From positions 1,751,001 to 1,815,000 of the forward strand of contig NC_081821.1 of the NCBI RefSeq assembly GCF_030704535.1: a stretch of DNA of 64,000 nucleotides, written 5' to 3'. Below, piece by piece: positions 992 to 61,200 of this stretch. The stretch comes from Vitis vinifera. Taxonomy: Eukaryota > Streptophyta > Magnoliopsida > Vitales > Vitaceae. A program made the position numbers and the translations under genes. Numbering within the stretch: position 1 is the first letter of the stretch; the number at the start of each line of letters is the position of its first letter. The notes under the pieces were generated by a model. That model did no database searches. It was given only the letters and a program-made list of their open reading frames with translations, and had not been told where the DNA came from.

Positions 992-2164
992 TGTCAACCC
1001 CTTAGCCACTTGGAATTTAATTTATATTTATTTAATATTCCGTTATGTCTCCTCAGGCATATTAATGTCTCCGACACATGGACAAGACTCGAGCACGCAC
1101 ACATGGGCTCCACAACATGTGTGGTGTGCACCCCATGGCCGCAACGGCATGGGGCCTGGTGTGGCCTACCTCCTCCCTACGTAGGCACGAGGACGCTTAA
1201 ACCTTGTGCGGTGAACCAGCTGAGAAAGCCATGGGTACAATGTCATGGCCTGATGGGGCACCAGACAACAGCTGACTTGCACCATGATGCCTACGCACAG
1301 CACAGGGGCGCAATGCCCTGTGCACCAAGAGGGATCAGCCATGGGCACAATGTCATGGCTCGTTGCTATGGAGTTGGACTTGACAGTGGAAGCAAGTAAC
1401 ACGCTCAAGCGATGGGCACCTAGACATGGCGTGGGCTCACACATCAGTGTGGGGAAAACACACTGATGCACCAGACACTTGGTCAACTGGTTGGTGCATG
1501 CTGCCTAGATCAGAAGGCCTTGATCAAAGACACGTTGGTGAGCACCCGGTCACAAGAGGCCCCTTGTGGGGAAGAAGACAGCTTATTAGGGGGACTCTCC
1601 AGCAGCTTGGTGAAAAAGGCTAGAGGAGATGGCAGCTAACCAGTGCAGCTAGCTAGTGGCAACTAGTTGGGACAACAAGTGATCAAGTCAAGCAACCAAT
1701 TGACTTCCAGTTGGCTGAGGTGATAATGGCCGGTGCAAGTGGGTGGTTCATGTGCAGGCCACTATCTGGGTGGTGGGTGGTTATGCAAGGCAATTATGGG
1801 CAGTTCTGGCCAGTTGCATAACCACCAGATTGGCTCCAACTTTTGAATTTGGAAATTAAAAAATGTAATTGCAGGCTGAGTCTTTTAAAAGGGCTCCTGC
1901 AACCTTGAGAGAGAGGAAGGGATTGGGGATCTAGTTCTTTTAATGCTTGGGTGTGAAGCATTGTACTCTGACTCAGGGGGAAAACAATTTTTTCTTGTAG
2001 AGTGAATTAATACAAGTTGGGAAAGGTTTCTTGTAAATGTTGGTGTCCCTGTTACTGTGTTTTTACTTTGTTTTTCTAAGAGCTAGGAAGGAAGGTTGGC
2101 TAAGGAAGGGTCCTTAGCATCGCACACTCGTGAAAAATTTAGAGTGATCTTCAGGGGTGTGACA
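992..2164 (+). repeat. 5' LTR (internally deleted)
   Basis: It aligns to the 3' LTR along its length but lacks two blocks that the 3' LTR has, of roughly 300 and 140 bp, near positions 1012 and 1070. It is therefore 1173 bp against 1610 bp. The open frames inside it at 941-1620 have no family match and are LTR sequence by chance open. Confidence 0.9.
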
Positions 2165-2180
2165 ATAGGTATCAAAACTT
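2165..2180 (+). promoter_or_regulatory. Primer-binding site, initiator-Met tRNA type
   Basis: Directly after the LTR lies TAGGTATCAAAACTTG. It resembles TGGTATCAGAGC, the complement of the 3' end of plant initiator Met-tRNA, with a few mismatches. This fits most plant Ty3/gypsy elements. Confidence 0.65.
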
Positions 2181-2189
2181 GCACTAGAG

Positions 2190-2977
2190 ATGACTGGTGG
2201 TAGTGCAATGGATGCCCTACGGGAAAGGATGACTCGGATGGAAGAAACATTGGGAGAATGGCTATGTGATGATGGCACTGTGGCTTAGTAAGCAGAACAC
2301 ACCATTGGAGAAATCCAAGTGCAGAGAAGTCTGCCGGAGACCCATGACAATTTCTTTGAGGAGAAACTTGTTGGGTTGAAATCAGAGATGCAGTCCCTGA
2401 TGGATGACTTCAAGGGCGCCCTGCAGTCCTCAAGAAGGGTGTGTTGCAGGGGTCCTCGTCAGGCCCTGAAGCCCCTTAAAAAATCTGGGTCCCAGAGCCT
2501 AAGGGCTTTAATGGTAACAGGAACGTGAAGGAGTTAGAGAACTTCTTATGGGACATGGAGTAGTTCTTTAAGGCTACTCACATTCCTGAGGCCGAAAAAG
2601 TGTCCATCACCAGTATGTATCTGACTAGTGATGCCAAACTATGATGGCGAACAAGGATGGAAGACGATGCAGAGTCTGGAAGGCCCCAAATCACTACTTG
2701 GAAGACTTTGAAGAAGGAATTGAAGGATCAGTTCCTCCCCACTAACACTGCGTGGGTGGCTAGAGAAGCGCTGAAAAGGCTCAAACACATCGGATCTGTG
2801 AGGGACTACGTCAAGGAATTCAGCTCCTTGATGCTTGACATAAAGAATATGTTAGAGGAGGACAAACTCTTCAATTTCATGTTTGGATTGCAAGAGTGGG
2901 CTCAGACGGAACTTAGGAGGTAAGGGGTTCGTGATTTCCATGCTGCCATGGCTGCAGCAGACTGCCTGGTGGACTAC
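2190..2977 (+). pseudogene. gag remnant of the chromovirus, N-terminal and capsid part
   Basis: A start at 2190 opens a short frame closed by TAG at 2286. The capsid-like region follows in other frames (about 2319-2520 and 2657-2923). The stretch from about 2657 (WKTLKKELKDQFLPTN, RLKHIGSVRDYVKEFSSL) is the retrotransposon gag fold of plant gypsy elements. The coding sequence is then cut at 2977 by a nested solo LTR and resumes at 4719. Several stops and frame changes mean no full Gag can be made. Confidence 0.8.
2973..2977. repeat. Target-site duplication of the nested solo LTR, left copy (ACTAC)
   Basis: ACTAC lies before the TGATT start of the nested LTR and recurs at 4714-4718 after its AATCA end. 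Confidence 0.85.
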
Positions 2978-4713
2978 TGATTATTACTCAAAAAATGTTA
3001 TTTTGTAGCTTGTAATTAACTCTTTTAAACACTCTTGAGTAGTAAATATTACCTTTTAACTCAATTGACATGTTAAGGACCCTTGCAATCGTTTCTAATC
3101 AAATTGTGTTAAGTTTTGGTGTTTTTGATAGCTTTTAGCTACACCAAAGCAATCCAAGAATGAGGGGGAGCTGTATATAGTTCATGGCAAAGCTTTTGGA
3201 AGCTCAAATTCATGAAGAACCAAGCTTTGGAGCTCCATAGCCCTTTTCCAAAGTCGTTCAAAGTATGCAAGGAAAGAACAATGGAGAAGAGGAAAACAGA
3301 GTGAAGAAAATAGAGGACAGCAGCTGCAGTCTTCTTTCACACTTTTGGAGCACTTTCCGAAGTCCATTTTCTACATGCTGTATACCATTTCAAAGCTCAG
3401 GAAGTCAAGAATCCAACGCTTCAAACCATGTACTATTTGGAGCTGAAGTGAGGAAGATATGGCCTTCGGAAGACAACTGCATCAGCTGAAGGACAATTTC
3501 GCACCTTGCGAAATTGGAACTCCAACGTGCGAAATTTAAAGTGGATGGCAGCTGTGCATTCGCGGTGAAGTCCAACATGCGAAAGTGATTTTGCAACTTG
3601 CAAACTTGGATCTCAACGTGCGAAAGTGGATTCTAAGTTGCGAAATCAACTTGCGAAATTTTCGCAAGTCACCATGCAACGTGCGAAACTGGGATATTTG
3701 TGCACCAACTCTTTTAGATCTTTTCTTCAGATATTTTTGTATAAATTTCCATTCTTCTCCTTGTAATCCACCAACCATAAGATTTCTTAGCTAGGAAGGT
3801 TAGAAAAACTTCTCTATATATATTCCCTTGCATCCATTGTAATAGATATAAAAATATAGATAGATATCATATATAGAATCAACAAACAGAGCACTTGCTC
3901 TGTTTTTCATATATATTCTTGTTTTCTCATTAGTTTTCTTGCTAGCCAAACATTCTCTGAGATGTTTTCTCAGAGGATGAGTGGCTAGGCTTTTTGTTTC
4001 TTGGGTGAAGAAAGCTAGGTGAAAAGTCCAGATGCAAAAGCGGAAAACTCTCGTGCATTAAATACAGGTAGTTGGAGTTCATAAATGACTTCTAAATCTA
4101 AAGTTTTGCTTTAAATCCCTTATAATCACTTTGAATGGCCAATACATGGTAAGCTTCAGGTCTCTGTGGATGCTTATTGCTAGATCCATATCAGTCCATT
4201 AGTTATCATATACGAGCCATTGGAAAGTGGTTCAAAGTGAAGACCCATAGTGTCTAAAGCCATTAATGGAACTTGACTACCATTTCTATTGACTTTTTAT
4301 GGATTAAATCTTCATTGTTAAACCTATACCGGTTCGGGAAATAACTATAGGTTAAATCCCCAATGCTAGGAGAAAAATCCGGAATTTCCCACTTTACAGT
4401 TGGCACCTGATCCTAGTAACCTGAGATCCTAAGAAACACCTTTCTTTCTAATTTCTTTCTAGTTAATTTTAGTTACTTTATGTTAGGTTAGCTTAATACC
4501 ATCCGTTTTCATTCAAACTTATGTCTTCTTTTAAAGCTAACTTTGAAATGAAAAAGCACCAATTCATCTTTGAATTAATATCATTTGTGAAGTGAAAACC
4601 TATCCCAGAGTTCGACCCTAGAGCCACTATGCTATAGTAGCTTTGCTACGCTAGTATGAGGTCATAGGTTTGATAAATGTTTTTTATTAAAAGACTCGAC
4701 TGGGCATGAATCA
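2978..4713. mobile_element. Nested solo LTR (1736 bp) inside gag
   Basis: The insert begins TGATT and ends AATCA, a perfect 5-bp terminal inversion with TG/CA ends. It is flanked by ACTAC duplications, and removing it with one ACTAC rejoins the host gag reading. No coding domain is present, and its length suits one LTR, so the parent probably recombined away its interior. Near 3840-3905 it has TATA-like and leader-like sequence. Near 4600-4690 is a stretch resembling the LTR ends of large plant gypsy elements. Between about 3495 and 3690 a TTGCGAAATT/CGTGCGAAA motif recurs many times. Confidence 0.85.
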
Positions 4714-4718
4714 ACTAC

Positions 4719-5034
4719 AAGATGGGTGGCACCATCTCCACCATGCAGAGACCCAAGTCAGAAGGAGGCAAGAAGGCTAAGGCTGAGAGTAAGACTTCTA
4801 AGAAGTCTGGATGGAAGAAACAAGAAGCCTGCTGCAGGGGGAAAACTAATGGAGAAGACCACAAAGTTTGTGCAGCAGACCACCCGGATGACAAGATGTT
4901 TCATCTACAATGGCCTTCACCGAGCCAGAGACTGCCCCAAAAGAGATAAACTCTCAGCCCTTGTGACTGCAGACGACAAGGGAGACTCTGACTCAGAGAC
5001 CCCTCCTAGAGTCAACCCACTATAACTCCTGAAC
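4719..5034 (+). pseudogene. gag remnant, nucleocapsid end
   Basis: The continuation of gag after the nested LTR is Lys/Arg-rich and holds one zinc knuckle, CFIYNGLHRARDCPKR (about 4890-4945). The second cysteine of the CX2CX4HX4C pattern is replaced by tyrosine. It ends in an acidic stretch (DDKGDSDSE) typical of the spacer before protease. Confidence 0.75.
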
Positions 5035-6500
5035 GTGATTAATGGTGAGACCCCAGTCCAGAAATCCCTAATGCATGTCCATGTCATTGTAAATGGTGTG
5101 CAGGTGAAGGCCTTGGTGGATAGTAGTGCCACTCACAACTTCGTGGCCACCAGAGAAGCAACCAGGTTGGGATTGAAGTTGGAAGAGGATACTAGTCAGA
5201 TCAAGACAGTCAATAGCAAAGCCCAAAAGATCCAAGGTGTAGCCAAGAACGCCCCCATGCAAATTGGTGACTAGAAGGGGTACGTGCAGCTTACTTTGTG
5301 TGCCATTGGATGACTTTAACTTGATCCTTGGTGTAAATTTCCTCTTGAGGGCTAAGGTGGCCTTGATCCCACATCTTGGTGGGCTGGTGGTGTTGGAAGA
5401 AAAGCAACCTTGTTTTGTGAAGGCTTTGAGGGCAAATGATGGTGCTAAGGGACAACCTGAGATGTTCTCTGCCATCCAGTTGAAAAAGGGATTGAAGAAG
5501 GGTCAGGGGACTTATGTTGCAGCCTTGATCGAGATCAAGGAGGGACAGTCCGTGGAAGTCCCCGATTCAATGGTCAAAATCCTTAAGGAGTTCAGAGATG
5601 TGATGCCTGCAGAACTCCCCAAGGAATTGCCACCCCGGCGACCTATTGATCACAAGATTGAATTGTTGCCTGGAACAAAGGCCCATGCTCAAGCCCCTTA
5701 CAAGATATCTCCTATAGAGTTGTTGGAGTTACGTAAGCAACTGAAGGAATTGTTGGATGCAGGCTTGATCCAGCCCTCAAGGGTCCCATATGGTGCACTA
5801 GTGCTGTTCCAAAAGAAGCATGATGACTCTCTCCGCATGTGTGTGGATTATAGAGCTCTCAACAAGGTGACCATCAAGAACAAGTACCCGATCCCCTTGG
5901 CTGCTGAGCTGTTTGACAAACTGTCAAAAGCCTCTTACTTCACCAAGTTGGACCTGAGATCGGGTTATTAGCAAGTGCGAAGTGCAGCAGGAGATGAGGG
6001 GAAAACCACCTGTGTAACTCGGTATGGATCATACGAGTTTCTGGTAATGCCCTTTGGACTGACTAATACCCCTACTACATTCTGCAATTTGATGAATGAT
6101 GTTTTGTTTGACTATTTAGATGCATTTGTGGTAGTATATCTGATAATATTGTGGTTTACAGTAAGACCCTAACAGAACATGAGAAACATTTGAGATTAGT
6201 GTTCCAGAGATTGAGGGAGGATAGGTCTGATCAAGATGGATAAAGGCAAGGTGTAGACTATTATGGAGTGGCTAGTCCCTAACAAAGTGACTGAGTTGCG
6301 GTCCTTCCTTGGCTTGGCCAATTACTACAGAATGTTCATTAAAGGGTATTCAAAGAGGGTGTCTCCCCTTACTGACCTGTTGAAGAGGGATAACCAATGG
6401 GATTAGAGCATGCAGTGTCAGACGACCTTTGAAGGCTTGAAGGAAGCCATCTCCACTAAGCCTGTGTTGCGGTTATCAGACTTGGACTTACCTTTTGAAG
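5035..6500 (+). pseudogene. pol remnant: protease and reverse transcriptase
   Basis: The protease is recognised by ALVDSSATHNFV (about 5110-5145), where the usual Gly after Asp-Ser is Ser. The frame breaks near 5270. Reverse transcriptase follows (about 5590-6170) with [27 protein letters not shown] and FLVMPFGLTN. A TAG closes the frame at 5969-5971, and a shift near 6140 disrupts the catalytic YVDD-type box. The connection to RNase H (about 6250-6500) is read in a further frame. The enzyme is inactive as encoded. Confidence 0.85.
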
Positions 6501-6998
6501 TTCAAATAGATGCCTCAGATAGAGCCTTGGGTTAGAGTCTTGGTGCAAGAAAGGCACCCTGTGGCTTTTGAAAATAGGAAGCTAAACAATGTTGAGCAGA
6601 GGTGTTCCACTCATGAGAAGGAGATGATGGTTGTGATTCACTGCTTGCAGCAATGGAGGCACTACTTATTGGGAAGCATTTTTACAGTGGTCACTAATAA
6701 TGTGGCCAACACCTTCTTCAAAACTCAGAAGAAGCTAAGTCCCAAACAGACGCAATGGCAAGAGTTCCTAGCCGACTTCAAATTTCAATGGTTGCATCGA
6801 CCAATAAGACATAACACTGTTGTTGATGCCTTATGTAGGAAAGAGGTGATTGCTTACATCACGGCCCTCTCAGAAGTCATCTCTGACTTCAATGAGAAAA
6901 TCAAGCAAGTTGCAGAGCAAGATGCTGCATATGGTAGGCTGAAGCAACAAGTTAAGGAGGGTGTGATAAAGAGGTATTGACTAGAGGGAGACCTTCTT
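6501..6998 (+). pseudogene. pol remnant: RNase H domain
   Basis: The stretch HPVAFENRKLN..CSTHEKEMM is the RNase H core of Ty3/gypsy elements, followed by the tether to integrase. An in-frame TGA ends this segment at 6978-6980, so it is not joined to the integrase frame. Confidence 0.8.
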
Positions 6999-7832
6999 GT
7001 GGCAAAAAGAGGAAGATGGTATGTTCCTGCAGGCAGCCTGAGAAATGAATTGTTGCGGGAAACTCATGACGCGAAGTGGGCAGGTCATCCCGGTGAAGAG
7101 AGGACTCTAGCACTGCTAGCCAGATCCTACTACTGGCCTAAGATGGGTGAGGATGTCCAAGCATATGTGAAATCCTGCCTGGTTTGTCAAATGGACAAGA
7201 CCGAGATGAAGAATGCTGCAGGGTTGTTGCAGCCCCTCCCCATTCCAAAGAGACCTTGGGAGAGCATTTCCATGGATTTCATCACTAAATTTCCAAAGGT
7301 TTGTGATTTTAAATCTATCTTTGTTGTTGTAGATAGATTATCTAAGTATGTTGTGTTTATACCTGCCCCTGATGCTTGCCCTGTAGAGGAAGCGACTAAG
7401 TTGTTTTTCAGTAATGTTGTCAAGCACTTTGGGTCGCCTAGGGACATAGTCAGTGATCAGGATGCACAGTTCATAGGCCGGTTTTGGGTTGAGCTGTTCA
7501 AACTCTTGGGTTCAGAGTTGAAGTTTTCTACAACTAACCACCCTCAGACTGATGTGCAGACAGAGAGGATAAATGCCTTGTTGGAGGAATACCTCAGGCA
7601 CTATGTGACAGCAACACAAAAGAATTGGGTGGATTTGTTGGATACTGCCCAGTTGTGCTATAATCTGCAGAGGAGCTCAACAACAGGGATGAGTCCCTTT
7701 AAGCTGGCTATTGGGGTGCAACCACGGATGCCTTTGAAGGTGGCTAAGCAAAAAGTAGGAAGAAATAGTCCTACAACATACAAAATGGCTCAGTCCCGAC
7801 AGGAGATGTTTGATGAAGCCTGGGAAGTCTAG
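6999..7832 (+). pseudogene. pol remnant: integrase zinc finger and catalytic core
   Basis: This is the longest intact frame of the element. It opens with the H-H-C-C zinc finger (ETHDAKWAGHPGEERT and CLVCQ) and the MDFI motif. The DDE core follows: Asp in MDFI, Asp in IVSDQDAQF, and Glu after NHPQTDVQTERINALLEEY. The usual Gly-Gln in the HPQTDGQ motif is Val-Gln. The frame closes with a TAG before the GPY/F region, which continues in 7850-8158 (KVLLKLT, KYDGPFEV). Confidence 0.88.
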
Positions 7833-7849
7833 AGAAGGCAGCTAGACGA

Positions 7850-8373
7850 ATGAAGAAGTATGCAGATCGTGATCGCAGACCCTTGGAATTTCAGGTTGGG
7901 GACAAGGTCCTCCTAAAATTGACTCCTCAGATATGGAAGAAGATCAGTAGTAAGACAAGGCAAAGGGGTTTAATTCTTAAGTATGATGGACCATTCGAAG
8001 TGATAAAACTAGTTGGGCAGGTGGCCTACATGTTGAAGCTGCCTGAGAGGCTCAAGCTTCACCCAACTTTCCATATTAGCATTCTGAAGCCTTACCATGA
8101 GGATCTGGATGCAGAAAGGGTGCAGACAAAGCAGACCCCTCCCTTGGTCATGAAGTAGTTTGATCGAGAGATAGAGAAGATCTTGGATCATAGGACCATA
8201 GGACATAGTAGAAAGAACCGACGAACTGATTTCTTGGTTCAGTGGAAGGGGACTTCAGAAGTAGAAGCTACATGGGAGAGAGATATAACCTTGTGGCAAT
8301 TTGAGACGACGGTCCAAGCATACTGGCAGACTAAGTCGACGAGGGCATCAACTTCAGCAGGCGGGGGTGGGTT
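7850..8373 (+). pseudogene. pol remnant: integrase C-terminal domain and chromodomain
   Basis: The first part has the GPY/F-type module (DGPFEVIKLVGQVAYMLKLP) and the HPTFHISILKPY block. After a TAG at 8156-8158 comes a chromodomain, RTDFLVQWKGTSEVEATWER (about 8220-8280), which in chromoviruses directs integration toward marked heterochromatin. The purine-rich tract around 8355-8371 precedes the 3' LTR. Confidence 0.85.
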
Positions 8374-9983
8374 TGTCAGCCCCTTAGCCACTTGACTCAA
8401 CCATGGAGGAAAAGACCTTATGGATAGGCCTTGCACCCATGAGAGCCAAGCAGAAAGCAAGGAAAGCTTGGAGGTTTGGTGGTTCAAACTCCAGGAGCTA
8501 AGTGAGGAGGCCGCGAGCAAGCCAGACACGCACCACGAGCAAGCCAGACGCGCACCGTGAGCGAGCCAGACGTGCATCGCGGGCGAGCCAGACGCGCACC
8601 GCGAGCGAGTCAGACAGGCACCGCGTGTGCACCAGATGGGCACCGCGCGCACCAAGATTAGGTGGTGCAGATGAAGGCTGAGAGACTTTTGGAATTTAAT
8701 TTATATTTATTTAATATTCCATTATGTCTCCTCAGGCATATTGATGTCTCCTCCAAAAACAATGAAAACGACCTGTATTGCTTTTTAAGGGAGAGGGGGG
8801 TAAGGGGGTAGGTGACTCAAAGGGGGGAGCACCAAGGGAAAGCCTTGACCGCACCAAAGGGGCACCATGGCACGACCTTGGGCGTGCCTAGGACACACGG
8901 ACGGCACTCGAGCACGCACACATGGGCTCCATGACATGTGTGGTGTGCACCCCGTGGCCGCAACAGCACGGGGCCTGGTGTGGCCTACATCTTCCCCGCG
9001 CAGGCACGAGAGCGCCTAAACCTTGTGCGGTGAGCCAGCTGAGGAAGCCATGGGCGTAATGTCATGGCCTAATGGGGCACCAAGCAACAACTAACTCACA
9101 CCATGATGCCTACGCACAACACAGGGGCGCAATGCCCTGTGCACCAAGAGGGATCAGCCATGGGCACAATGCCATGGCTCGTTGCTATGGAGCTGAACTT
9201 GACAGTGGAAGCAAGCAACACGCCCAAGCCATGGGCACCTAGACATGGCGTGGGCTCACACATCAGAGTGGGAAAGGAACACTGATACACCAGACACTTG
9301 GTCAGCTAGTTAGTGCATGCTGTCTAGATCAGAAGACCTTGATCAAAAACACGTTGGTGAACACCCGGTCATAAAAGGCACCTTGCGGGGAAGGAGGCAG
9401 CTTATTAGGGGGACTCTCCAGCAGCTTGGTGAGAAAGGCTCGAGGAAATGGCAGCTAACCAGTGCAGCTAGCTAGTGGCAGCTAGCTGGGACAACAAGTG
9501 ATCAAGTCAAGCAGCCAATTGACTTGCAGTTGGCTGAGGTGATGATGGTTGGTGCAAGTAGGTGGTTCATGTGCAGGCCACTATCTGGGTGGTGGGTGGT
9601 TATGCAAGGCAGTTATGGGCGGTTCTAGCCAGTTGCATAACCACCAGATTGGCTCCAACTTTTGAATTTGGAAATTCAAAAATGTAACTGCAGGTTGAGT
9701 CTTTTAAAAGGGCTCCTACAACCTTGAGAGAGAGGGAGAGATTGGGGATCTGGTTCTCTTAATACTTGGGTGTGAAGCATTGTACTCTGACTCAGGGGGA
9801 AAACAATTTTTTATTGTAGAGTGAATTAATACAAGTTGGGAAAGGTTTCCTGTAAACGTTGGTGTCCCCGTTACTGTGCTTTTACTCTATTTTTCTAAGA
9901 GCTGGGAAGGAAGGTTGGCTAATGAAGGGTCCTTAGCACCGCACACTTGTGAAAAATTTAGAGTGATCTTCAGGGGTGTGACA
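8374..9983 (+). repeat. 3' LTR (longer copy)
   Basis: The 1610-bp LTR starts TGTCAGCCCC and ends TGTGACA, and it contains the two blocks missing from the 5' LTR. It differs from the 5' copy by scattered substitutions, so the insertion is not recent. Confidence 0.9.
8515..8646. repeat. Minisatellite of six 22-bp units inside the 3' LTR
   Basis: Six head-to-tail 22-bp units of the type GAGCGAGCCAGACGCGCACC plus two bases can be read without gaps. The last one is diverged. They sit in the block deleted from the 5' LTR. Confidence 0.85.
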
Positions 9984-9988
9984 GTAGC
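9984..9988. repeat. Target-site duplication, right copy (GTAGC)
   Basis: It is identical to 987-991 and marks the 3' end of the chromovirus. Confidence 0.9.
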
Positions 9989-15734: not shown

Positions 15735-16392
15735 TGATGATAAAAATCTGAAATTTTCTTTAAGTGTGTGTGTTCTTCTTTCCTCTTTTCTCACAGTTTG
15801 GCTCAGGCTCTCGCGATGAGGACAACGGCACGGCATTAAAGAAATGGTTTCTGCTTTCATTAGAGTCCGGCTGAACAACCTCCACAACTGTCACAGTATA
15901 GCCCTAGTCCAAGGAAGATCACGTGGCTAGTATTAATTCAATTTTATTAATGTTGCGTCAAATCTGTTAGTGGGTAATAATTATTTTTACATAACGGATG
16001 GGAACGCCCTTTTTAGTTTTTCCTTACCAAAGCCTAAATATTATATTACTTAGCTCAACGTGTGATCCATTTAACTAATTTAATAATCATGAATAAAAGG
16101 CTTTTGATTTTGAAGATTTTGAATAAAAGGGCCTTTTTTTTTTTTTCTAATATCTCTATTTTTTTTCCTTTCTATAGTGGAGATAATGATATGTAGTGAC
16201 AGAACATGGTCATATATAATGACATTTGTTTTTTCTAATAGCTCTTTTTTCTTTTCTTTTTTGTTTTATAGTGGAGATAGTGACCCGTAATGACATATCA
16301 TAACAAGTTTGTGGTAAGAATGACTTTCGTTCTAATGCCTAAAAATAATATTCCAAAACTTTTGTATGCTCTTCATTACTTGTGTGGATAAG
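15735..16392. other. Intergenic DNA upstream of the beta-glucosidase relic
   Basis: The part to about 15900 is probably the old leader of the GH1 gene. From 15900 the DNA is AT-rich with a local imperfect repeat. A TTTCTATAGTGGAGATA-like segment near 16170 recurs near 16265, each followed by TAATGACA-like sequence. No gene is seen. Confidence 0.4.
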
Positions 16393-16402
16393 TCTCATGT
16401 TG
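16393..16402. repeat. Target-site duplication of the fold-back element, left copy
   Basis: TCTCATGTTG precedes the element and is repeated exactly at 19062-19071. A 10-bp duplication is within the 9-11 bp range of Mutator-like elements. Confidence 0.85.
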
Positions 16403-16593
16403 GGACTTTTCTTAATAGTACGGTAATTTAAAAAAGTTATGCTTAAATTATTGTAGTAGAAGAAGTTATTACAAATATATGGTAGTTTTTGCCACCTAGG
16501 AGAGAGGAGAGAGGAGAGAGGAGAGAGGATGAACGGATAAATTTTTTTAAAACTAAAATCATCTTTTCAAATTTCAAAAGGCGAAATCGTCTT

Positions 16594-16714
16594 TTCGAAC
16601 AAAGGGAACTCGTCTCTTGAAGAGACAAGTTCCATGAAAAAAAAATATATATATTTTTTAAAAAATTCCCCATTTACTCAAGGGAACTCGTCTCTTCAAG
16701 AGACGAGTTCCATG

Positions 16715-16768
<54 letters not shown>

Positions 16769-17330
16769 AAAAAATTCCCAAATTATTAAAAAAAAAAAAA
16801 GCAATTCCTTAAGGGAACTCATCTCTTGAAGAGACGAGTTCTCTTGGAAAAAAAATATATATATTTTTTTAAAAAAATTCCCAAATTAAAAAAAAAAAAA
16901 AAAATTCCTCAAGGGAACTCGTCTCTTCAAGATACGAGTTCCATGAAAAAATATATATATATATATATATTTTTAAAAAAATTCCCAAATTATTTAAAAA
17001 AAAAAAAAAAAAAAAAACAATTCCTCAAGGGAACTCGTCTCTTCTTCATGAGACGAGTTCCCATGAAAAAAAAATATTTTTTTTTTTTAAAATTCCCAAA
17101 TTAAAAAAAAAAAAATGGTCAAGGTAACTCATCTCTTGAAGAGACGAGTTCACATGAAAAAAAATTAATATATTTTTTTTTAAAAATCCCAAATGTAAAA
17201 AAAAAAATCCAAAAGGGAAATCGTCTCTTGAAAAGACGAGTTCCCATTAAAAAAAATTAATATTTTTTTTTTTAAATCCCAAATTATAAAATAAAAAAAA
17301 ATTCAAAGGGGAAATAGTCTCCTTAAAAAA
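16594..17330 (+). repeat. Left-arm array of palindromic units (about 8)
   Basis: Units of the form GGGAACTCGTCTCTT, one central base, then its reverse complement (31 bp) occur near 16600, 16681, 16814, 16911, 17028, 17125 and 17215, plus a degenerate one near 17310. Each is followed by CCATGAAAA-like sequence, an A/T run and AAAATTCCCAAATT. The unit near 17028 has an altered loop. Confidence 0.85.
16719..16765. repeat. (AT)n microsatellite in the left arm
   Basis: An unbroken run of alternating A and T follows a palindrome unit. A similar run lies at 18239-18285 in the right arm, at a comparable place in the unit. Confidence 0.9.
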
Positions 17331-17394
17331 AACTAATATTTTTAAATTTTTTTTTAAAATCTCAAATTATAAAAAAATAATAATTTGGGAATTT

Positions 17395-18234
17395 TTTGGA
17401 AGAGACGATTTTTTTTTTTTTAATTTGGGAATTTTTTTTAAAAAATATATATTTTTTTCCATGGGAGCTCGTCTCTTCAAGAGACGAGTTCCCTTGAGGA
17501 ATTGTTTTTTTTTTTTTTTAATTTAATAATTTGGGAATTTTTTTAAATATATATATATATATATATTTTCATGGAACTCGTCTCTTGAAAAGACGAGTTC
17601 CCTTGAGGAAATTCCTTTATTTATTTTGGGAATTTTTTTAAATATATATATATATATATATATTTTTAAATATTTTTTTTCCATGGGAACTCGTCTCTTG
17701 AAGAGACGAGTTCCCTTGAGGAAATTCCTTTTTTTTTTTTTAATTATATATTTTTTTTAAAAAAATATTTTTTTTTTCCATGGGAACTCGTCTCTTGAAG
17801 AGACGAGTTCCCCGGAGGAAATTCCTCTTTTTTTTTTCTTTTTTTTAATTTGGGAATTTTTTTTTCCCATGGGAACTCGTCTCTTCAAGAGACGAGTTCC
17901 CTTGAGGAAATTATTTATTTATTTATTTATTTATTTTTAATTTAATTTGGGATTTTTTAAAAAAAATATATATTTTTTTTCCATAGGAACTCGTCTCTTC
18001 AAGAGACGAGTTCCCTTGAGGAATTTTTTTTATTTTTTTTTAAAAATTATATACTTTTAAAAAATATATATTTTTTTTTTCCATGGGAACTCGTCTCTTG
18101 AAGAGACGAGTTCCCTTGAGGAATTGCTTTTTTTTTTTTTTTTTCCTTAATTTGGGAATTTTTTTTTCCCATGGGTGAAGAGACGAGTTCCCTTGCCTTT
18201 TTTTTTTTTTTTTTTAATAATTTGGGAATTTTTT

Positions 18235-18287
<53 letters not shown>

Positions 18288-18875
18288 CATGGAACTCGTC
18301 TCTTCAAGAGACGAGTTCCATTGAGGAATTGTTTTTTTTTTTTTTTTTTAATTTGGGAATTTAAAAAAAATATATATATTTTTTTTCCATGGGAACTCGT
18401 CTCTTGAAGAAACGAGTTCCCTTGAGGAATTGTTTTTTTTTAGGAATTTTCTTTTTTTTTTTAATTTGGAAAAAAAAATTTCCATGGGAACTCCTCTCTT
18501 CAAGAGACGAGTTCCCTTGAGGAATTTTTTTTTTTTTTTAAATTTGGGAATTTTTTTTAAATTTTTTTCCATGGGAACTCGTCTCTTCAAGAGACGAGTT
18601 CCCTTGAGCAATGTTTTTTTTTTATTTTTTTTATTTTATAATTTGGAAATTTTTTTAAATATATATATATATATATATTTTCAAGGAACTCGTCTCTTGA
18701 AGAGACGAGTTCCCTTGAGGAATTGTTATTTTATTTTTTATTTTTTATATCATGGAACTCATCTCTTGAATAGACGAGTTCCTTTAAGAAGTTTTTTTAA
18801 TAAATGAGGAATTTTTTTAAAAAAATATATATATTTTTTTTCATGGAACTCGTCTCTTGAAGAGACGAGTTCCCT
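17395..18875 (-). repeat. Right-arm array of palindromic units (about 15)
   Basis: The same palindrome recurs near 17463, 17572, 17687, 17786, 17870, 17985, 18087, 18178 (half unit), 18293, 18388, 18486, 18570, 18685, 18752 and 18843. The spacers are the reverse of those in the left arm: TTGAGGAATT after the palindrome and TTTCCATGG before it. The right arm is longer because it has more units. Confidence 0.85.
18239..18285. repeat. (AT)n microsatellite in the right arm
   Basis: An unbroken run of alternating T and A sits just before a palindrome unit, mirroring 16719-16765. Confidence 0.9.
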
Positions 18876-19061
18876 TTCTTTGAAAAGACGATTTCGTCTT
18901 TTGAAATTTGAAAAGATGATTTTGGTTTTAAAAAAATTTATCCGTTCACTCTCTCTCCTCTCTCCTATGTGGCAAAAACTACCATATATTTGTAATAACT
19001 TCTTCTACTATAATAATTTAAGCATAACTTTTTTAAATTACCGTACTATTGAGAAAAGTCC

Positions 19062-19071
19062 TCTCATGTTG
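19062..19071. repeat. Target-site duplication of the fold-back element, right copy
   Basis: TCTCATGTTG, identical to 16393-16402. Confidence 0.85.
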
Positions 19072-20337
19072 TATAACATGTAACTTTCATTATGGGGATC
19101 AATTTCTAATTGCGTAACTTCATAATAGTTATATAAAGCTTCTGCATAATTTCCTTGGAATCGAGTTGACGTCTATTATCATCGTCATTTAAAAAAATCT
19201 TTGTTCCAAAACTATATTTGAGATTTTCATCTCATACAACTCCTTCATTACGTGCATAATGAAAATAATACATAAAATAAAATAAAACGAAAATATTCTC
19301 ATTATAAATTGGGTGGGGCTAGTGGTGCAATAATCAATACTGTCTCATATCATTAAACAAATATGAGATAAGATATATTATCCCCTCTTTTATCTTATTC
19401 CATGTTATATCTAGCAATTCAACATAGCCTAAAGGCATATTTGAATAATTATCTATTTAGTATTTATTTAAGAAGTACTATAAATGATTTTTCAACTTTT
19501 ATAAATACTTTTAAAATTTTGTTAAATATGTGATTTAAAAAAAAACATTTTTTATGCTATAAATGTTTTATAAAAACATCGTCGAATAGATTCCTAAAAT
19601 GTGTTTGTTCTTATTTCTATTCAAAGTATTTTTAATAACAGTATTTTATTTTTAAAATATATTTAGAAGAATTACCAATGAAACGTTCTTCACGAAACAC
19701 TATGAAAGTGTATTTTACAATATTTTTATTTAAAGTACCTCTCTTAAAAAATTATTTCCTTTGAAAGTATATATTTTTAAAAATCACTTATCAAGTATTT
19801 GTTGTAAAACAATATAAGTAATTTTTCAAAATTTTTGAAGTACTTTTTAAAAATTTTGTGTTTTTATTTCTTTTCAAAATTTTTTTTTTACCATAAGTGT
19901 TTTTAAAATAACTATTTGAAAGTATTTTCTAAATTGTCTCAAATATCTATTTTTTTTTAAAAAAATAATAATTAAAACCAAAATATTTTTTTAAAAGCAC
20001 TCCCAAACGAATATTAATCCATGTCTTGCAAAAAATGATTGACATTGAGGGGTTGGTTAGGCACAAGGTCCTAATTTGCCGATCTAGTAAGTTGTTGCCT
20101 GCAAGTTGAAGACAAACAAGAAACGGTTGTGGTAAATAATTAACTTAGAAGCTTTCCGATTTTGGCTGATTTTTGGATCTTAAATTAAAATAAAATTTTT
20201 GGTGGGTTAAACATGAAAGAAGAATAAAAATAAGGTATCATGAAAATTATCTGAAATTTTATTTATATTTTAATTTTTTTTTCATTATATAAAATAGATT
20301 AGATTGGAGATAAAGTAGTAGACATGAAATGAAATTA
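19072..20337. other. AT-rich intergenic DNA
   Basis: No gene is visible. From about 19430 to 20010 the sequence is full of TTTTTAAAAA-like segments and ends with AGCACTCCCAAACGAATA. That is the style of decayed fold-back MITEs, but I could not fix the ends. Confidence 0.4.
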
Positions 20338-26227: not shown

Positions 26228-26640
26228 CTACAGATTAGATAAAAAGGCTGTGTCATCGTCCACAGCAACAAACCCACCACAACAGTCCCCTGTTTTCTTT
26301 AAAACCTCTTGACTCCACAGATGCAGAGGAATGCCTAACACCCTCACCCAGACCTCCTTGACAACACCACTCTTAAGAAAACAACCAGCCTCAGGGGTAC
26401 ATCTTGCTAAATGCAAAAAATTATCCTTGATCCTTCTAGAACCTCTGGCAAGCACCCTCTCTGCCTCAAATTTATCCTCAAATTCAAATAACAGCAAAGC
26501 TCCCCCAAAAGCTGAAATCTTCACGGCCCTTTTCAATGAACAAAGATTGGTCATACAATTTTTCAATGAGGACAAAACAGGAGATGTGTCTGACCCATCC
26601 CCAAACCACCCAACGAAGATGTGTTACAATGGTTATTGTT
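26228..26640 (-). mobile_element. LINE fragment: ORF1 DUF4283 region
   Basis: On the minus strand a 115-residue frame reads LLLFEFEDKFEAERVLARGS and later VWVRVLGIPLHLWSQEVLKK. This is the DUF4283 plus WVRVxGLPLHLW pattern of plant non-LTR ORF1 proteins. The reading extends upstream to about 26625 (VGWFGDGSDTSP). Neither the start of ORF1 nor ORF2 is present. Confidence 0.75.
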
Positions 26641-26965: not shown

Positions 26966-27164
26966 GCCCTACGTCAAGTCATGAGGCTATCTATGGTCTT
27001 GTACCTTGCAAACTCATTTTTGTTTAACATTTGAATTTCATAACTAATGTCCTTATTGGTTTTACATGAATTTTTTTGAATGTGGGCATCAGACCGTGTT
27101 GGGGTTCATCTCCTTTGAATAGGTTGTCTCTCTTTGGGCCATGGATGGGTTGGTGGGACATAAT

Positions 27165-27460
27165 AGGTGGGTTTGGGAATTCAGATATGAAAAACAGTTT
27201 TCTTAGTTTATTTTTGAATGTGGGCACTACTGTACACTTATGGACAATGCAATAGTTTCCAATGTATTTTTTATATTTTCAATTATTGCTCAGAACACTA
27301 TGTAAAAAACCAGAATAGGTGAATTTGGAAACTCAAATATGAAAAACAGTTTTCTTAGTTTATTTTTCATGAAGACTACTGTATATTTACATACAATGCA
27401 AAAGTTTCCAATGTATTTTTTATATTTTCAATTATTGCTCAGAACACTCTGTAGAAAACA
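27165..27460. repeat. Tandem duplication, about 148-bp unit
   Basis: The block with ATATGAAAAACAGTTTTCTT, AGTTTCCAATGTATTTTTTA and ATTGCTCAGAACACT occurs twice in direct order (about 27165-27312 and 27313-27460), with moderate divergence. Confidence 0.8.
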
Positions 27461-27758
27461 ATTGAAAACATCTCAAATTTCTTCTAAAAAACATCTTTTT
27501 TTGAGAACAAATTTTAAAAAATTGTTGTTCAGTCAAAAGTTTGTCAAACATCTTTTTTGAGTTATAAAATTGTTTTTAAAAATAGTTTGCAAACAAACCC
27601 TAAGTTTCTCCATTCCTGTTTTGCAACTCATTCTGAATTGCTTCTACATAATACATGTTTCTCCTTTTGCACATTTGATATCATATCTAATTGATTTTGT
27701 TTTGCCTGGCCTTTTTAATTAAACTATTACAGGGGTATTTGAGCAGCAGTGGTAATAT

Positions 27759-33262: not shown

Positions 33263-36200
33263 ATGGCGGAAATGAATGGGAACCACTGGATCGATCCGAA
33301 GAGCGGGTTCTCCCCTACAACCAAGACCTACCATAGCCTCCGACCTCCGGTACCTTTTCCGCCGAAGCACCGCCCTCTTTCCCTCGCCGAGTACGTCATC
33401 TCCCTCCTCCGCTCCGCCCCTGACTCACCGCTCGAAACCACCAACGTTCTTATCGACGCTTCCTCCGACTACCGCCTCTCGTATTCTCAGTTCCTCCGGC
33501 AAGTCCAATCCTTGGCCGCCTCTCTTCAGCGCATCACCGGCCTTTCCAAAGGCGATACTGCTTTCATTCTCTGCCCTCCTTCTCTCAAAATCCCTGTTAT
33601 CTACTTTTCTCTCCTCTCTCTCGGCGTCACCATTTCTCCCACCAATCCGCTCGGCTCCGACTCCGAAGTTTCTCACCAGATTCACCTCTGCAAACCTGCG
33701 ATTGCATTCGCTTCTTCGAAAACTGCTCACAAGCTGCCGAGCCTGCGGCTCGGCACGGTGCTTGTTGATTCGCTGGAGTTCGACTCTATGATGACAGAGA
33801 ATGGAGCAGGTTATGGTAAACGAGTGGAGGTGAGTCAGTCTGACCCGGCCGCGATTCTCTATTCGTCCGGGACCACGGGACGAGTGAAGGGAGTGTTGTT
33901 GACCCACCGGAACCTGATCACGCTTATCGCTGGATTCCACCATAACCGGCTAGAGAAAGAGGAGGATGGGCCGCGCCCAGTGTCGCTGTTCACGCTGCCG
34001 CTATTTCACGTGTTCGGATTTTTCATGCTTGTGAGGGCAGTCTCGTTGGCGGAGACCTTGGTTCTGATGGAGAGGTTTGATTTCGAGAATATGTTGAAGG
34101 CCGTAGAGAAGTACCGAATCACGTATATGCCGGTGTCGCCGCCCCTTGTGGTGGCGCTCGCAAAGTCGGAGTTCGTCGGCAAGTACGACCTTAGCTCGCT
34201 TCAGTTGCTTGGATCAGGCGGGGCGCCGCTGGGAAAGGAGGTTTCCGAGCGGTTCTCCGCACGATTCCCCAATGTACAGATGGTACAGGTGAGAAACTTT
34301 AATGGGCCCCTGACTCATGTGGGCCCACAATCTTACTGTCTGATGGACCCCTCACGTACTCATGGCTGCCACTGCAGGATAATAGCTCCAAAAATTAAAT
34401 GATAATTTTAATGTCTTAGAAATGGTTGGGTAAGTGATTTCTTACTATTTAATTCTAAGGAAATTAGATTATTATATTGCTGGATGAGTTTATCAAGAAT
34501 TAGAAAAATTGAATAAAATCACTATCAAATACATACACTCTACGTTTGATAGTAAAAATATTTTTATTAGAAGTGTTTTATTTGAAAATGATCTGAGGAG
34601 AATCTCATATAAAAAATGCTTTTTCCAAAAACATTATAAGTACTTGAAAATGATACTAAAAAATGTTTCTAACTTTCTAGTACTTGAAAGATAAAATTTT
34701 TTGATGCATTATAAATATTAAAAACACCTTTTAGAATCACTATCAAATACATTCTAAAAGTTTTTGTTAAATTTGGTCAAACACCTAATTTTTTTCAAAA
34801 ATACCTTTTGAATTAAAAGTGTTTTTTTAGAATGACTACGGATTTTAAGTGTTCCTGTATAAATATTTTTTAGAAATAGGATACGAATATATCCTATACA
34901 GCATTGTGAAAGCTGTCATAGTGTGTGTATAGCTACTTTATTTATGCAGATTGGAGGCTCTTAATCTCGTTGTTAAACATTTTGGCAGCTTCATGTATAT
35001 TATTATGGGTTGTTGAATGTTAATCTACTTTATTGTTATATGTCTTAGGGATATGGTTTGACTGAAAGTGGGGGAGGGGCAGCAGGGATGGCAGACCTTG
35101 ATGAGGCTAAGCGGCATGGATCTGTTGGTCGCCTAATGCATGATATGGAAGCCAAGATAGTTGATCCTAAAACTGGAGAGGCCTTACCACCTGGCCAGCA
35201 AGGGGAGCTGTGGTTGCGCGGTCCAACAATCATGAAAGGTGGTGCATATTTGTGCAAAGAATTGTTCCTTTCTCTATTTGTGATAATGATAATGCATGTT
35301 AAACATTTTAATTACATGGAGATAGACAGTGGCACTATACAAAGGATATATCGAACTCCTATACTAGATTGTGAAGCCCATGATGTTTAAAATTTCTGAA
35401 TTTATTTATTTATTTATGAGTTCCGTGGCATTATACATAGGAATATATTCTGTTTTTATTGTGATAGCTCATGAAGTTTGTGTATATCAGATTTGAATCC
35501 TAAACATATGCTACCCCCTCAACTGCCTTGCTTTGTGAGTGATACTTGTTTCCTTTGCTCTTGGTTAGCTTTTCCATGAGATACTGTTGAGAGCATAGCA
35601 ATAAGGGAATAATTTCTCATTATTCAAGCTAGCTCCTCTGAGTTGGTCTCTGTCATTCCTTTCTCCATGCCATTGATCTCCCCTTGCCCACTGTGAATGT
35701 AATGGAAGCCCATGCCTTGGTCATCCTGTCCAATTAAGCTCATCAGCCTTTCCTTAGGCAGATTCACTTAAAGGTGAATATCATTTCTGAAGAAATTTGC
35801 TGAGATTTGTCCATCTTTTTGTGGACTTTCTGACATTCTGTTTTGAAACTTGACTTTCATGTTCACAATTTTTGCCACACATATTTTTCTCCATTCTTAC
35901 ATTTACATGCATAAGTCAGCTTGTGTGAACTACTTGGTTTCAGCTATCTGGATATTATTTCACTACTCAGCTGTGTCTAGGGCAATATCTCCATTATACC
36001 ATAGACTGTCATGTCTTTTTCCCTGCTTATCCCTCCTTAAGCTATAGGTGTCTGGCACAATATCTTCCACTACACCATAAGACATTAGTTCACCACCTTC
36101 ACTTCCTGCTTATCCCTGCAGCATCCCTAACTTGAATGGAATCTCTAACGCTTACTCGTGAATTTTCGTCTGTGTCGTATATGCCTGAGCCATTTTAAAC

Positions 36201-41105: not shown

Positions 41106-41113
41106 CTCACAAT
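41106..41113. repeat. Target-site duplication of the hAT-like element, left copy
   Basis: CTCACAAT, repeated at 42329-42336. Confidence 0.85.
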
Positions 41114-42328
41114 CATGGAGGAAAATATCGGGATATATCGGCGATATATCGCCGATATATCGTGTATCGGGAGGAGGCGACACGATATTTCATGGAGAAA
41201 AATCGGAGAGGAGATATTTCCGTAAATATCGCCAAAATATTGGCGATATATCGGCGATATATCGGTTCGGGGAGATATATCAGAGATTTTTTCAAAAAAT
41301 CTCCTCTGGTGGCAAAAAATCGGTGATATATCGGTGATATATCGGAGATATATCGGTGATTTTTTGGTGATATTTCCCCTCCTTCATGCAACGTGATCTG
41401 ACGGCCCAGATCACACCCGTGTTGATTCGACGATCTAGACGTAATTCCAATGGTAATATGGCAATCCAACGGCCCGATTGCTCCTAGTTTTTTATCCAAC
41501 GGCTAAAATTGATTTTCAACAGTAAATTAATGTTCCAACGGCTATTTTGGCCCAAATTTCATCTATTTCATCCATTTTTGCTTTCATTCTTCATTTGCTC
41601 TCTCATTACTCCAATTTTTATTAAGGTTGCTCAATTATTTAATTATTTTAAGGTATATTTGTTTTAAATTATAATTAATTTTGTTTGCAATTGTAATTAA
41701 TTCATATATTTTCAATTAATTAGTATGTTTGCAATATGGATGATTTAATGCTATTTTTACATTCAATTGTAATTAATTTTTATATTTTTATTGAATTAAC
41801 TTAGGTTGATTTGATTATTTAATTATAAATTGATATGTTTATTTTAGATGATTATTTGTGATTTATTTTCACATTTAAAATTAAATTAAACTAGTTAACT
41901 TAGCTAAATTATTTAATTAATTTAATTAACATGAAATAATATATTTTGAATATGAAATATGTTTATTTAATGAATTTAATGTGTACAAATTATTGATATT
42001 TAATGAAATGAAATATTTTATGTGACTTTATAATGAGAACAATTACCAAAATTAACATTTCTTATAAATCGACATGATGTAATTACATCTAATATCGTAA
42101 ATTATATCATATATATATCAAATTTTTCAATAAAACAACTTTAAAATGTCAATTATACTTCTAATTATATTATTATGAGGTTTTTCTTGCATTTTCATGA
42201 GTTTTTAACAATTTTAAGTCTACCGATATTTTTTTCCAGAATATCCGCCGATATATCTCCGATATATCCGATATATCCGTAAAATCGAAGTACCGATATA
42301 TCCGTGATTACCGATATTTTCTTCCATG
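41114..42328. mobile_element. hAT-like non-autonomous element with ATATATCG subterminal arrays
   Basis: The 1215-bp element starts CATGGAGGAAAATATCGG and ends with its near-perfect inverse (CCGATATTTTCTTCCATG). The flanking 8-bp duplication is the hAT size. Both ends hold many copies of CGATATATCGG-like words, dense in 41130-41370 and again in 42235-42320, as expected of subterminal transposase-binding repeats. The interior is AT-rich (about 41600-42180) and has no transposase. The open frames at 41080-41499 on both strands arise from the repeats. Confidence 0.82.
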
Positions 42329-42350: not shown

Positions 42351-42678
42351 AGCTTTGACTAAAAATAGTATATTTTAAAAAAAATTCAAAAATTAAACTT
42401 GTTTCCAAAATAATACTCAATTTAGTGTGTCTGTACTACATAAGCTGTCATGTCATAAAACTGTTTTAATTTTATTTTTTTAAAATGGTTAGAAATCACG
42501 ATTGATGACTACGGTTTTTATCTATTTTAGAAAAATAAAATCGTAGTCATCAATTATGATTTTATGATATGACAATTTATATGATACATATATAATATAT
42601 AGTAGATTCAACATTATTTTGAAAATAAGTTTAGTTTTAAAATTTTTTAAAAAAATGTACTATTCTGGGTCAATGGTC
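42351..42678. mobile_element. Mutator-like MITE, 328 bp
   Basis: It is flanked by CATTTTCAAG at 42341-42350 and 42679-42688, a 10-bp duplication. The two halves fold on each other: AATAGTATATTTTAAAAAAA against its inverse near 42640-42665, and GATTGATGACTACGGTTTTT against AAATCGTAGTCATCAATT in the centre. There is no coding capacity. Confidence 0.75.
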
Positions 42679-58298: not shown

Positions 58299-61200
58299 AT
58301 GTTAGGCATTGGAACATATGGTTATACTGCCCCTATGGCCAAAAAGACTGTCGTGGGCTATGAAGCTCCCGATGGGGTTGATATCAGGGGCCGATATGAT
58401 GAAGAACTTGCAAAGATTTTGACTAAGGATGCCCTGCAGTTTGTGGCTGATCTGCAGAGGGAGTTTTGGAGTCAAATTAAGTATGCAATGGAGTGTAGGA
58501 GGGAGGCGAAGAGGCGGTACAATGAGGGGGCGCTGCCGAGTTTCGATCCGGCTACAAGGTATGTGAGGGAAGGTGACTGGGTGTGTGCGCCTGTGCCACC
58601 GGCTGTCGCTGATCGGAAGGTGGAGATTACCGGTCCCGTGGAAAGGAAGATGATCATCAATGCTCTCAACTCCGGTGCTAAAGTTTTCATGGTAAGTGGT
58701 ACTTGTTCTTCATGTTAAAGAGTACGGTATAAATGGTGAACCCAAATCCAACAAGTTTAAGTTTTTAGGAGAATTTGTATTTTTACATCAAAGCTTCTTT
58801 TGCGTGGGAGGTCATGTGTTCGAGCCGTCTCTCCGCAATTTGCATAATATTAACCTATTTTGCAGGCTGATTTTGAAGATGCGCTCTCACCAAGTTGGGA
58901 GAATCTGATGAGAGGGCAAGTTAACTTGAAGGATGCTGTGGACGGGACTATAAGCTTCCATGACCAGGCCAGGAACCGGGTTTACAGGCTCAATGACCAG
59001 ACAGCCCAGCTTTTTGTCCGCCCGCGAGGTTGGCATCTGCCTGAGGCTCATATTCTCATTGATGGCGAGCCTGCAACAGGTTGCCTTGTGGATTTTGGCC
59101 TCTACTTCTTCCATAACTACGCAACCTTCCGCCGGAGACAGGGTGAAGGGTTTGGGCCTTTTTTCTACCTCCCTAAAATGGAGCACTCAAGGTAAGGAGA
59201 AATCCCCCATTTTAAATGTTTTCAGTCTTCAATTGTGAGGGAAAATGATTGATCTCTGAATATATTCTTTAATTTCAATCTTTTTCAACGATACAGAACA
59301 TGCACTGCATCTTTTGGTGAGCCAGAGTTAAGGCCTGTTTGCATACTGTTTTTGAAAACGATTTCTAGCTCAGAAGAACATTTTTACAAACTTTTGATAG
59401 AAAAACGTTTTTATAATAATTTGTTTTGAAAACGGTTTGTTTTTATACATAAACTTGAGGTGTTATCAGTTGTTTATTGTATAATATTTTGAAAAATAAT
59501 TGAAAATAGAGAAAATACTTTTAAAACTATTGTATCATACATAATTGTACATTACTTTTATGGAGAATAAACAAAGAAAGCTTTTTCATATTTGTATTTT
59601 CAAACAAAATTTTGTTTTTAAAAACTATTGAAAACAGTTTTTAAAAATTATTTTTGATAATTATTTTCGAAAATGTTTCCAAATAGACCCTAATAAGTTT
59701 CCTTCTTGTCGGACAGCTTATTTTGGGAAACCCTTTAAGAAATTGTAGCATAATTCAACATGAAAATTTCGATGAAGAGTGACACAAACTTTATTATGTT
59801 TTCAGGGAAGCTAAAATATGGAACTGTGTGTTTGAGAGGGCAGAGAAAATGGCTGGAATAGAAAGAGGAAGCATCAGGGCCACAGTCCTAATAGAAACAC
59901 TACCAGCTGTTTTTCAAATGGATGAAATCCTCTATGAGCTCAGAGATCACTCTGTTGGTTTGAATTGTGGCAGATGGGATTACATTTTCAGCTATGTCAA
60001 AACCTTCCAGGGTCACTCTGATCGGTTGCTGCCGGACAGGGTTCAGGTTGGGATGACTCAACACTTCATGAAGAGCTACTCTGATCTTCTCATTAGGACG
60101 TGCCACAGGCGCGGAGCCCATGCAATGGGCGGCATGGTATGCAATTTTCCTTCACCTCTCACACACTCACACTATGGTAGTTATACTTTATAAGCATCCA
60201 TAGGCCCAATGTAAGAACCTATTCTAGATATTGTCTAGTTTAAACTTCTAGGTAAAAACTTTTTCCCTCTCTATTGTGTCCTATAGAATTCCAAGACTTC
60301 ACAAACTCCTACATTATGGTCAAGATCCGGCTTTGATACCATTTGTAATAATTCACTCCCAATCGTAAAGATATTATCAACTTTTAGCTCAAAGAACTAT
60401 CACGACTTTAAAACATAGTTATATAATTAAGAGAAATGTATGCATATATATATATATATATAGTGTCAAATTTTTTCGCTCCCTATCATATCAGGGGATC
60501 AAACAAACTTTCTCAAGGTTGAAAATCGACTTTAATACCATTTATGATAACTTGTTTTAATCATGTAAATATTATCAGTTTTGAACTCAATGGACTTTCA
60601 CAACTTTAAAAGAGAAGCCTAAACATGCATAGCGCTAAGAATTTTTTTTCCCCTGTGCGATATTGTTGCGGAGTATCACACTCAACTAGATTGCTATCCT
60701 TCAAATTTTTGAACAGGCGGCTCAGATTCCAATTAGAGATGACCCGGCAGCAAATGAGGCAGCTCTTGATCTGGTGAGGAAGGACAAGCAGAGAGAAGTG
60801 AGGGCAGGGCATGATGGAACGTGGGCAGCCCACCCTGGGCTCATTCCGGCCTGCATGGAAGTCTTCAACAACAACATGGGCAATGCAGCGAATCAGATCC
60901 AAACCATGAAGCGGGAGGATGCAGCAAACATAACCGAAGAGGACCTCATACAGAGGCCTAGAGGGGTCCGAACCATGGAGGGCCTGCGCCTAAACACCCG
61001 GGTCGGGATCCAGTACTTGGCCGCATGGCTCACTGGAACTGGCTCAGTGCCTCTTTACAACCTTATGGAGGATGCCGCCACAGCTGAGATCAGCAGGGTT
61101 CAGAACTGGCAGTGGCTGAAATATGGAGTGGAATTGGATGGAGATGGGCTTGGAGTGAAGGTGAGTTTAGACCTTTTCGGGCGAGTGGTGGAAGAGGAGA

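Follow-up and report, generated by a model that had tools for sequence, protein, structure and literature searches.

A grapevine foldback transposon built of tandem palindromes whose hairpin tips are split between C and G

In grapevine (Vitis vinifera), a 2,659 bp element with a GC content of 25% consists mostly of short palindromes repeated in tandem; it occupies positions 16403–19061 of the window, by which we mean the whole 64-kb stretch of DNA that was analysed. What kind of element is it, how might its palindromes have multiplied, and why is the single base at the tip of its hairpins C in half of them and G in the other half? An original prediction, made from the sequence alone, described a Mutator-like fold-back element of about 23 perfect or near-perfect hairpin palindromes. 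Here, we combine an analysis of its ends and repeat units with searches for other copies and a comparison of the hairpin tips, and find a genuine, structurally complete, non-autonomous foldback transposon that belongs to a multi-copy family.

The element starts with GGACTTTTCT and ends with AGAAAAGTCC, and a perfect 10-bp target-site duplication, TCTCATGTTG, stands on both sides of it with the same letters (16393–16402 and 19062–19071, plus strand). With inverted ends flanked by identical repeats, the predicted coordinates proved exact to the base. Outside the array, the left terminal inverted repeat covers 16403–16603 on the plus strand and the right one 18875–19061 on the minus strand; as aligned, 202 bp on the left (16403–16604, the final base being the first base of the palindrome) pair with 187 bp on the right, with 180 identities and 7 mismatches in 187 aligned bases plus 15 gap positions. 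Inside the left terminal repeat lies a degenerate half-core near 16582. The same repeat holds an AGGAGAG minisatellite (16498–16529), whose copy number apparently varies among other copies of the element, where SLLSPLS-like peptides differ in length.

Between these ends, the palindrome array (16604–18874) makes up 2,271 of the 2,659 bp, or 85% of the element. A 25-base core pattern, with at most three mismatches, has 20 sites in the 64-kb window, all of them at 16607–18871, and none in 100 dinucleotide shuffles; the predicted tandem palindromes in each arm are confirmed. We counted 21 palindromes, 20 with a one-base centre and one with a longer loop (around 17044), together with three half-copies near 17311, 17399 and 18175; the predicted number of about 23 thus becomes 21 palindromes, or 24 core sites when half-copies are included. 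Calling them perfect or near-perfect is fair, as only 13 arm substitutions occur in 20 palindromes, each of which has 26 arm positions.

The left arm array (16604–17321, minus strand) has seven units, centred on 16619, 16697, 16828, 16928, 17044, 17138 and 17230, and the half-copy near 17311. All seven are oriented opposite to the 14 units of the right arm array (17399–18874, plus strand), which are centred on 17478, 17587, 17700, 17797, 17886, 18000, 18100, 18305, 18406, 18501, 18588, 18699, 18768 and 18859 and accompanied by the half-copies near 17399 and 18175. Judged by sequence and unit orientation, the two arrays meet in an AT-rich junction at 17322–17398. Units are spaced 69–131 bp apart, except at the element centre (248 bp) and across one half-copy (205 bp). 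The outermost palindromes, at 16604–16634 and 18844–18874 (both listed on the plus strand), are mirror partners with opposite centre bases in the alignment of the ends, and a spacer stretch at 16716–16800 (plus strand) is 99% complementary to 18203–18287 in the other arm, with (AT)24 in both. Over 18 spacers, the mean pairwise identity is 62%, gaps counted. The earlier description of one long inverted repeat therefore suits the outer ends, which form a close inverted repeat, but not the arms, which are unequal (7 versus 14 units) and have diverged spacers.

To find other copies, we searched a protein collection with chance open reading frames (ORFs) of the element, and the 45 relatives described below are likewise chance ORFs, that is, ORF fragments of other copies. 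A 151-aa ORF of the array gave one weak match, P0121 (E = 0.13), which contains both the palindrome peptide and the end, and a 91-aa ORF across the right end matched 45 proteins (E values up to 7.9e-6), P0121 included, all from ENA contigs. The end motif (TIEKSP or close, allowing at most four substitutions over 11 residues) is present in 43 of the 45 and positioned at the terminus inferred from the window; it is missing in P0161, which stops short, and in P0160, which has a gap in the motif. At least five residues follow the motif in 38 of these 43 proteins, and all 38 differ there, the pattern expected of independent insertions. The element thus belongs to a multi-copy transposon family with a common terminus and different flanks, which removes a doubt voiced in the original prediction, namely that no other copy might share the ends. 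The other copies are probably grapevine's own. The palindrome had no exact-pattern match in viral contigs or prokaryote genomes, as expected for plant DNA, and a viral-contig scan with the end peptide returned 39 stretches by pattern and no relatives by tblastn.

Ahead of the end, a palindrome-coded peptide appears in 32 of the 45 proteins, 13–43 residues before a conserved WQKLPYI stretch. The remaining 13 have no recognisable palindrome peptide within the ORF (P0144, with a rearranged remnant, is among them), and P0121, P0130 and P0132 have two or three palindromes in one ORF. Palindrome number differs between the arms of the element (7 versus 14) and may vary from copy to copy; 0–3 palindromes are visible in the ORF fragments of the others. 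Palindromic AT-rich arrays are difficult to assemble, and the number of units rests on a single assembly, so one may ask whether the array is an artefact of assembling or sequencing repetitive DNA. The exactness of the duplication and of the ends, and the recurrence of the same end and palindromes in other contigs, make this very improbable.

In the surroundings of the element, a Pfam search covered ten ORFs. An O-fucosyltransferase gene (two ORFs) ends 2.5 kb upstream of the element; protein kinase, AMP-binding enzyme, DUF3537, DUF4283 and malate synthase matches occupy one ORF each, and one ORF has no match. A 4CL-like 9 exon at 33263–34290 is identical in 342 of 342 residues to the Vitis vinifera protein P0001, which is why we treat the window as nuclear DNA of grapevine. 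The DUF4283 fragment (26231–26623, minus strand) is probably a retroelement remnant, and at 1010–9987 lies an LTR-type retrotransposon with direct repeats at 1073–2168 and 8892–9987 (92% identical), integrase domains and a reverse transcriptase match below the cut-off (two ORFs, Pfam), which we read as Ty3-like. Other repeats in the window are an array of GATATATCGGC-like repeats at 41111–41379, spaced mostly 11 bp apart and with inverted pairs too; a second, imperfect inverted-repeat structure at 42373–42654 (about 280–340 bp, its 52-nt arms being 79% complementary), which may be an old MITE; and a dispersed repeat of about 280 bp at 27324–27603 and 59328–59604, in opposite orientation and 74% identical, whose first copy shares part of its length with a tandem duplication (about 150 bp, 27159–27459).

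With respect to class, we assign the element with good confidence to the non-autonomous foldback DNA transposons, as a member of a multi-copy Vitis vinifera family; a Mutator-type transposase acting in trans most likely mobilises it. Its long inverted ends contain tandem sub-repeats, as in foldback elements, and several copies share the terminus and differ in their flanks, as in a transposon family. MULEs duplicate about 8–11 bp of target, usually 9, and many of them, not all, have long inverted ends; here, the duplication is perfect at 10 bp rather than the usual 9, and the ends measure 202 and 187 bp. Of the predicted Mutator-like fold-back element, the fold-back thus stands, and the 10-bp duplication, the long inverted ends and the terminus shared among different flanks make Mutator membership probable for an element seen without a transposase or an autonomous partner. 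Among the four element ORFs of at least 90 residues, Pfam gave no match to a transposase or other coding sequence, apart from one below the cut-off (E = 0.085).

Those four ORFs without a transposase match would also fit a foldback element of a non-Mutator superfamily that has only its architecture in common with MULEs. FB-like structures arose in different transposase lineages, according to the available text of PMC3169594, and where duplications of grapevine MULEs were found they are always 9 nt in the accessible part of PMC2528002, so that the 10 bp seen here count against Mutator. A 10-bp duplication combined with inverted ends of about 190–200 bp is nevertheless typical of MULEs, and we consider a non-Mutator origin unlikely. 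Galileo of Drosophila is reportedly such a case, a foldback of P type. Duplications made by P and hAT elements are usually 8 bp long, a further point against this alternative. Two narrower labels were set aside: MITEs are usually under about 800 bp, which makes the element, at 2,659 bp, too long for one, even if the ORFs tested are non-coding as a MITE's would be; and membership of MuTAnT is at odds with the flanks and the duplication TCTCATGTTG, which are not TA repeats.

How unusual is this architecture? The original prediction held that a Mutator-like element would not normally carry a palindrome array, which is too strong: in the parts of the papers available, Tm1 (PMC3169594) and Tetris (PMC4079207) have foldback inverted ends of variable tandem-repeat number, and FARE (PMC4486113) and Mcmar (PMC3169594) are mentioned as having palindromes there. 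Tetris of Drosophila virilis resembles our element in being non-autonomous, in its outer domain and internal tandem repeats of variable number, in its 8–10-bp duplications and in its assignment to Mutator by inference; it differs in its units of about 220 bp, its animal host and the presence of its repeats in larger satellite arrays, and the accessible text describes no palindrome array (PMC4079207). The Tm1 Mutator/Foldback elements of root-knot nematodes likewise have composite inverted ends in which tandem repeats vary in number, duplications of mostly 9 bp and MITE-like members, whereas, as far as the available text goes, their repeats are 13–15 bp long, their terminal motifs asymmetric and a transposase-bearing member is known (PMC3169594).

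Among plants, MuTAnT of Medicago truncatula and FARE of Arabidopsis are Mutator-type elements whose long inverted ends form a foldback, and FARE has long palindromic repeats at both ends, a comparison made by description only (PMC4486113, in part). MuTAnT, in contrast, is about 200 bp long at its shortest and over 1.6 kb at its longest and inserts into TA microsatellites, with no tandem palindrome array described in the accessible portion of the same paper (PMC4486113). Mcmar, a Tc1/Mariner-like element of Meloidogyne chitwoodi, belongs to a different superfamily and host and is likewise compared by description only (PMC3169594, available text). The Mutavine families, which are MULEs of the same host, include several with inverted ends of about 140–440 bp and some with 9-nt duplications, but they are defined by their transposase (PMC2528002, accessible part). 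Among the open-licence papers listed by literature searches, judged by titles and abstract beginnings, we found neither a foldback with palindromic units nor a grapevine foldback of this architecture. Foldback elements with repeat-built inverted ends are thus already known, and what distinguishes this one is its tandem palindromic unit and the C/G split at the tip.

As to how the array grew, a palindrome beside each terminus was probably part of the ancestral end, possibly as a secondary transposase site, and arrays of unequal length would then have grown from the palindrome-plus-spacer unit by unequal exchange or replication slippage. No host function is necessary to account for the array. 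Selection could instead maintain the hairpins, for instance because they give rise to small RNAs or because proteins bind them. For this speaks that 32 of the 45 proteins have a palindrome peptide ahead of the end, as does the lower divergence of the cores relative to the spacers (mean 0.049 versus 0.105, the spacer figure perhaps being inflated by low-complexity alignment). Core divergence, however, resembles that of the inverted ends (7 of 187), none of the 13 core-arm substitutions is symmetric or compensated (all 13 are one-sided), and no Rfam family reaches its gathering score, which together make selection on the hairpins rather improbable.

The original prediction also had any transcript fold at two levels, as small hairpins and as one arm-to-arm duplex. 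In the predicted lowest-energy RNA fold of 16401–19055, the arm-to-arm duplex indeed dominates, with 687 of 1,059 pairs joining positions at least 600 nt apart, but only 5 of 20 small hairpins keep at least 10 of their 15 pairs, which indicates that the two levels compete; as isolated hairpins, they have predicted energies of −9.5 to −24.3 kcal/mol. It is possible that such transcripts would yield small RNAs, and the DNA itself may be prone to the cruciform-driven instability that the original prediction suggested. An Rfam search of 16000–19500 gave 43 matches up to E = 1, mostly to miRNA families and all below the gathering score, and we did not take them as evidence of miRNA identity. When the literature was searched for the two 13-base arms, one paper matched: in the available text of PMC3936892, the arm GAACTCGTCTCTT occurs within a listed 24-nt Brassica small RNA. 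The match may be a coincidence or may reflect a motif common to plant transposons.

For the hairpin tips, all units were turned to one orientation and compared, omitting the longer-loop unit (n = 20). The central base is C in 10 units and G in 10, whereas no variant at any other position of the 27-base core exceeds 2 of 20. Pairwise difference reaches 0.526 at the centre; the 26 arm columns average 0.049, with a largest value of 0.195, and the inverted ends differ at 7 of 187. The tips could have been inverted repeatedly when polymerases switched template, or hairpins were resolved, at the palindromes, which would leave the single central base half C and half G, with arm mutations remaining one-sided and decaying at about the rate of the inverted ends. 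We put the chances that recurrent tip inversion explains the split at about even, and regard as similarly balanced the proposal that each tip works as a reversible one-bit switch that template switching or hairpin resolution flips in a plant nuclear genome.

There are precedents for such flips. In yeast, where inverted repeats have arms of more than 9 bp, template switching reversibly flips the spacer and can also make the arms alike (PMC8604942, available text); the likeness lies in the reversible flips between arms of over 9 bp that we propose for the grapevine tips, whereas the yeast events are in genes and the grapevine case concerns a tandem transposon array with one-base tips. Recurrent small inversions are said to occur in chloroplast hairpins, and the avian hotspots in the same paper have no tie to stem-loops in its accessible part (PMC3123225). 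Frequent template switching should homogenise the arms, yet all 13 arm substitutions are one-sided, and this counts against it. One unit, 18305, behaves as arm copying predicts: among nine units with a base other than G at position −15, it is the sole case in which that base is matched at +15, and its centre is C.

The split could also have arisen without repeated inversion, if unit duplication and gene conversion passed one or a few ordinary G-to-C substitutions on to other units. The mirror pair of end palindromes (16619 and 18859), whose flanks match closely on both sides, is in opposite states, which argues against this route, as does the fact that the centre is the sole column of 27 with a minor state above 2 of 20. 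Units 16697 and 18305, both beside the shared (AT)24 spacer, also differ at the centre. Tip states nevertheless look partly inherited, in keeping with ordinary substitution: the centre is G in five of the six units with an AT run of at least 20 alongside (C only in 18305), and the best-matched spacer pair (90% identical) has agreeing tip bases at both ends. In a second pair (88% identical), the tip bases disagree at both ends. Position −15, just outside the core, is mixed as well (11 G, 7 T, 2 A), with a distribution that apparently goes with unit type, again as ordinary substitution would have it.

Across units, tip state showed no association with flank similarity in top-pair permutations (p 0.29–0.69), nearest-flank agreement (13 of 20 and 11 of 20) or Mantel tests. 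The controls (A-flank versus B-flank, flanks within one spacer) were equally null, with no descent signal in the AT-rich flanks, which makes these tests of tip descent uninformative and so leaves room for ordinary substitution. Other copies can be read in two frames that stay open for either centre, and in a third that is open only for C; most end palindromes sit in this C-only frame, so the C:G ratio among other copies is biased. In the either-centre frames, the last palindrome before the end is centred on G in two proteins (P0131, P0136) and on C in two others (P0121, P0135), whereas the right end in the window has G; of the palindromes further inward, two in P0121 and one in P0130 are centred on C, and P0132 shows G. 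The end subtype HYSNLRITFLNYC comprises eight proteins; in these, the last palindrome before the end carries a central G in two (P0131, P0136) and a central C in five (P0128, P0132, P0143, P0147, P0148), and it is rearranged in P0144. Both states thus occur within one end subtype, a further point against ordinary substitution, which we consider plausible at somewhat less than an even chance.

Foldback elements are thought to lengthen their ends by multiplying internal repeats, and a family with hairpin units would show whether such units favour array growth. The element is otherwise ordinary as a transposon, and the tip base is the part worth following. A hairpin unit with an apparently flipping tip would let in-vivo rates of template switching at short palindromes be estimated from long-read grapevine genomes and clones. 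If the tips do flip, the many homologous tips per element, multiplied by many copies, would form a natural recorder of palindrome template switching in plants.
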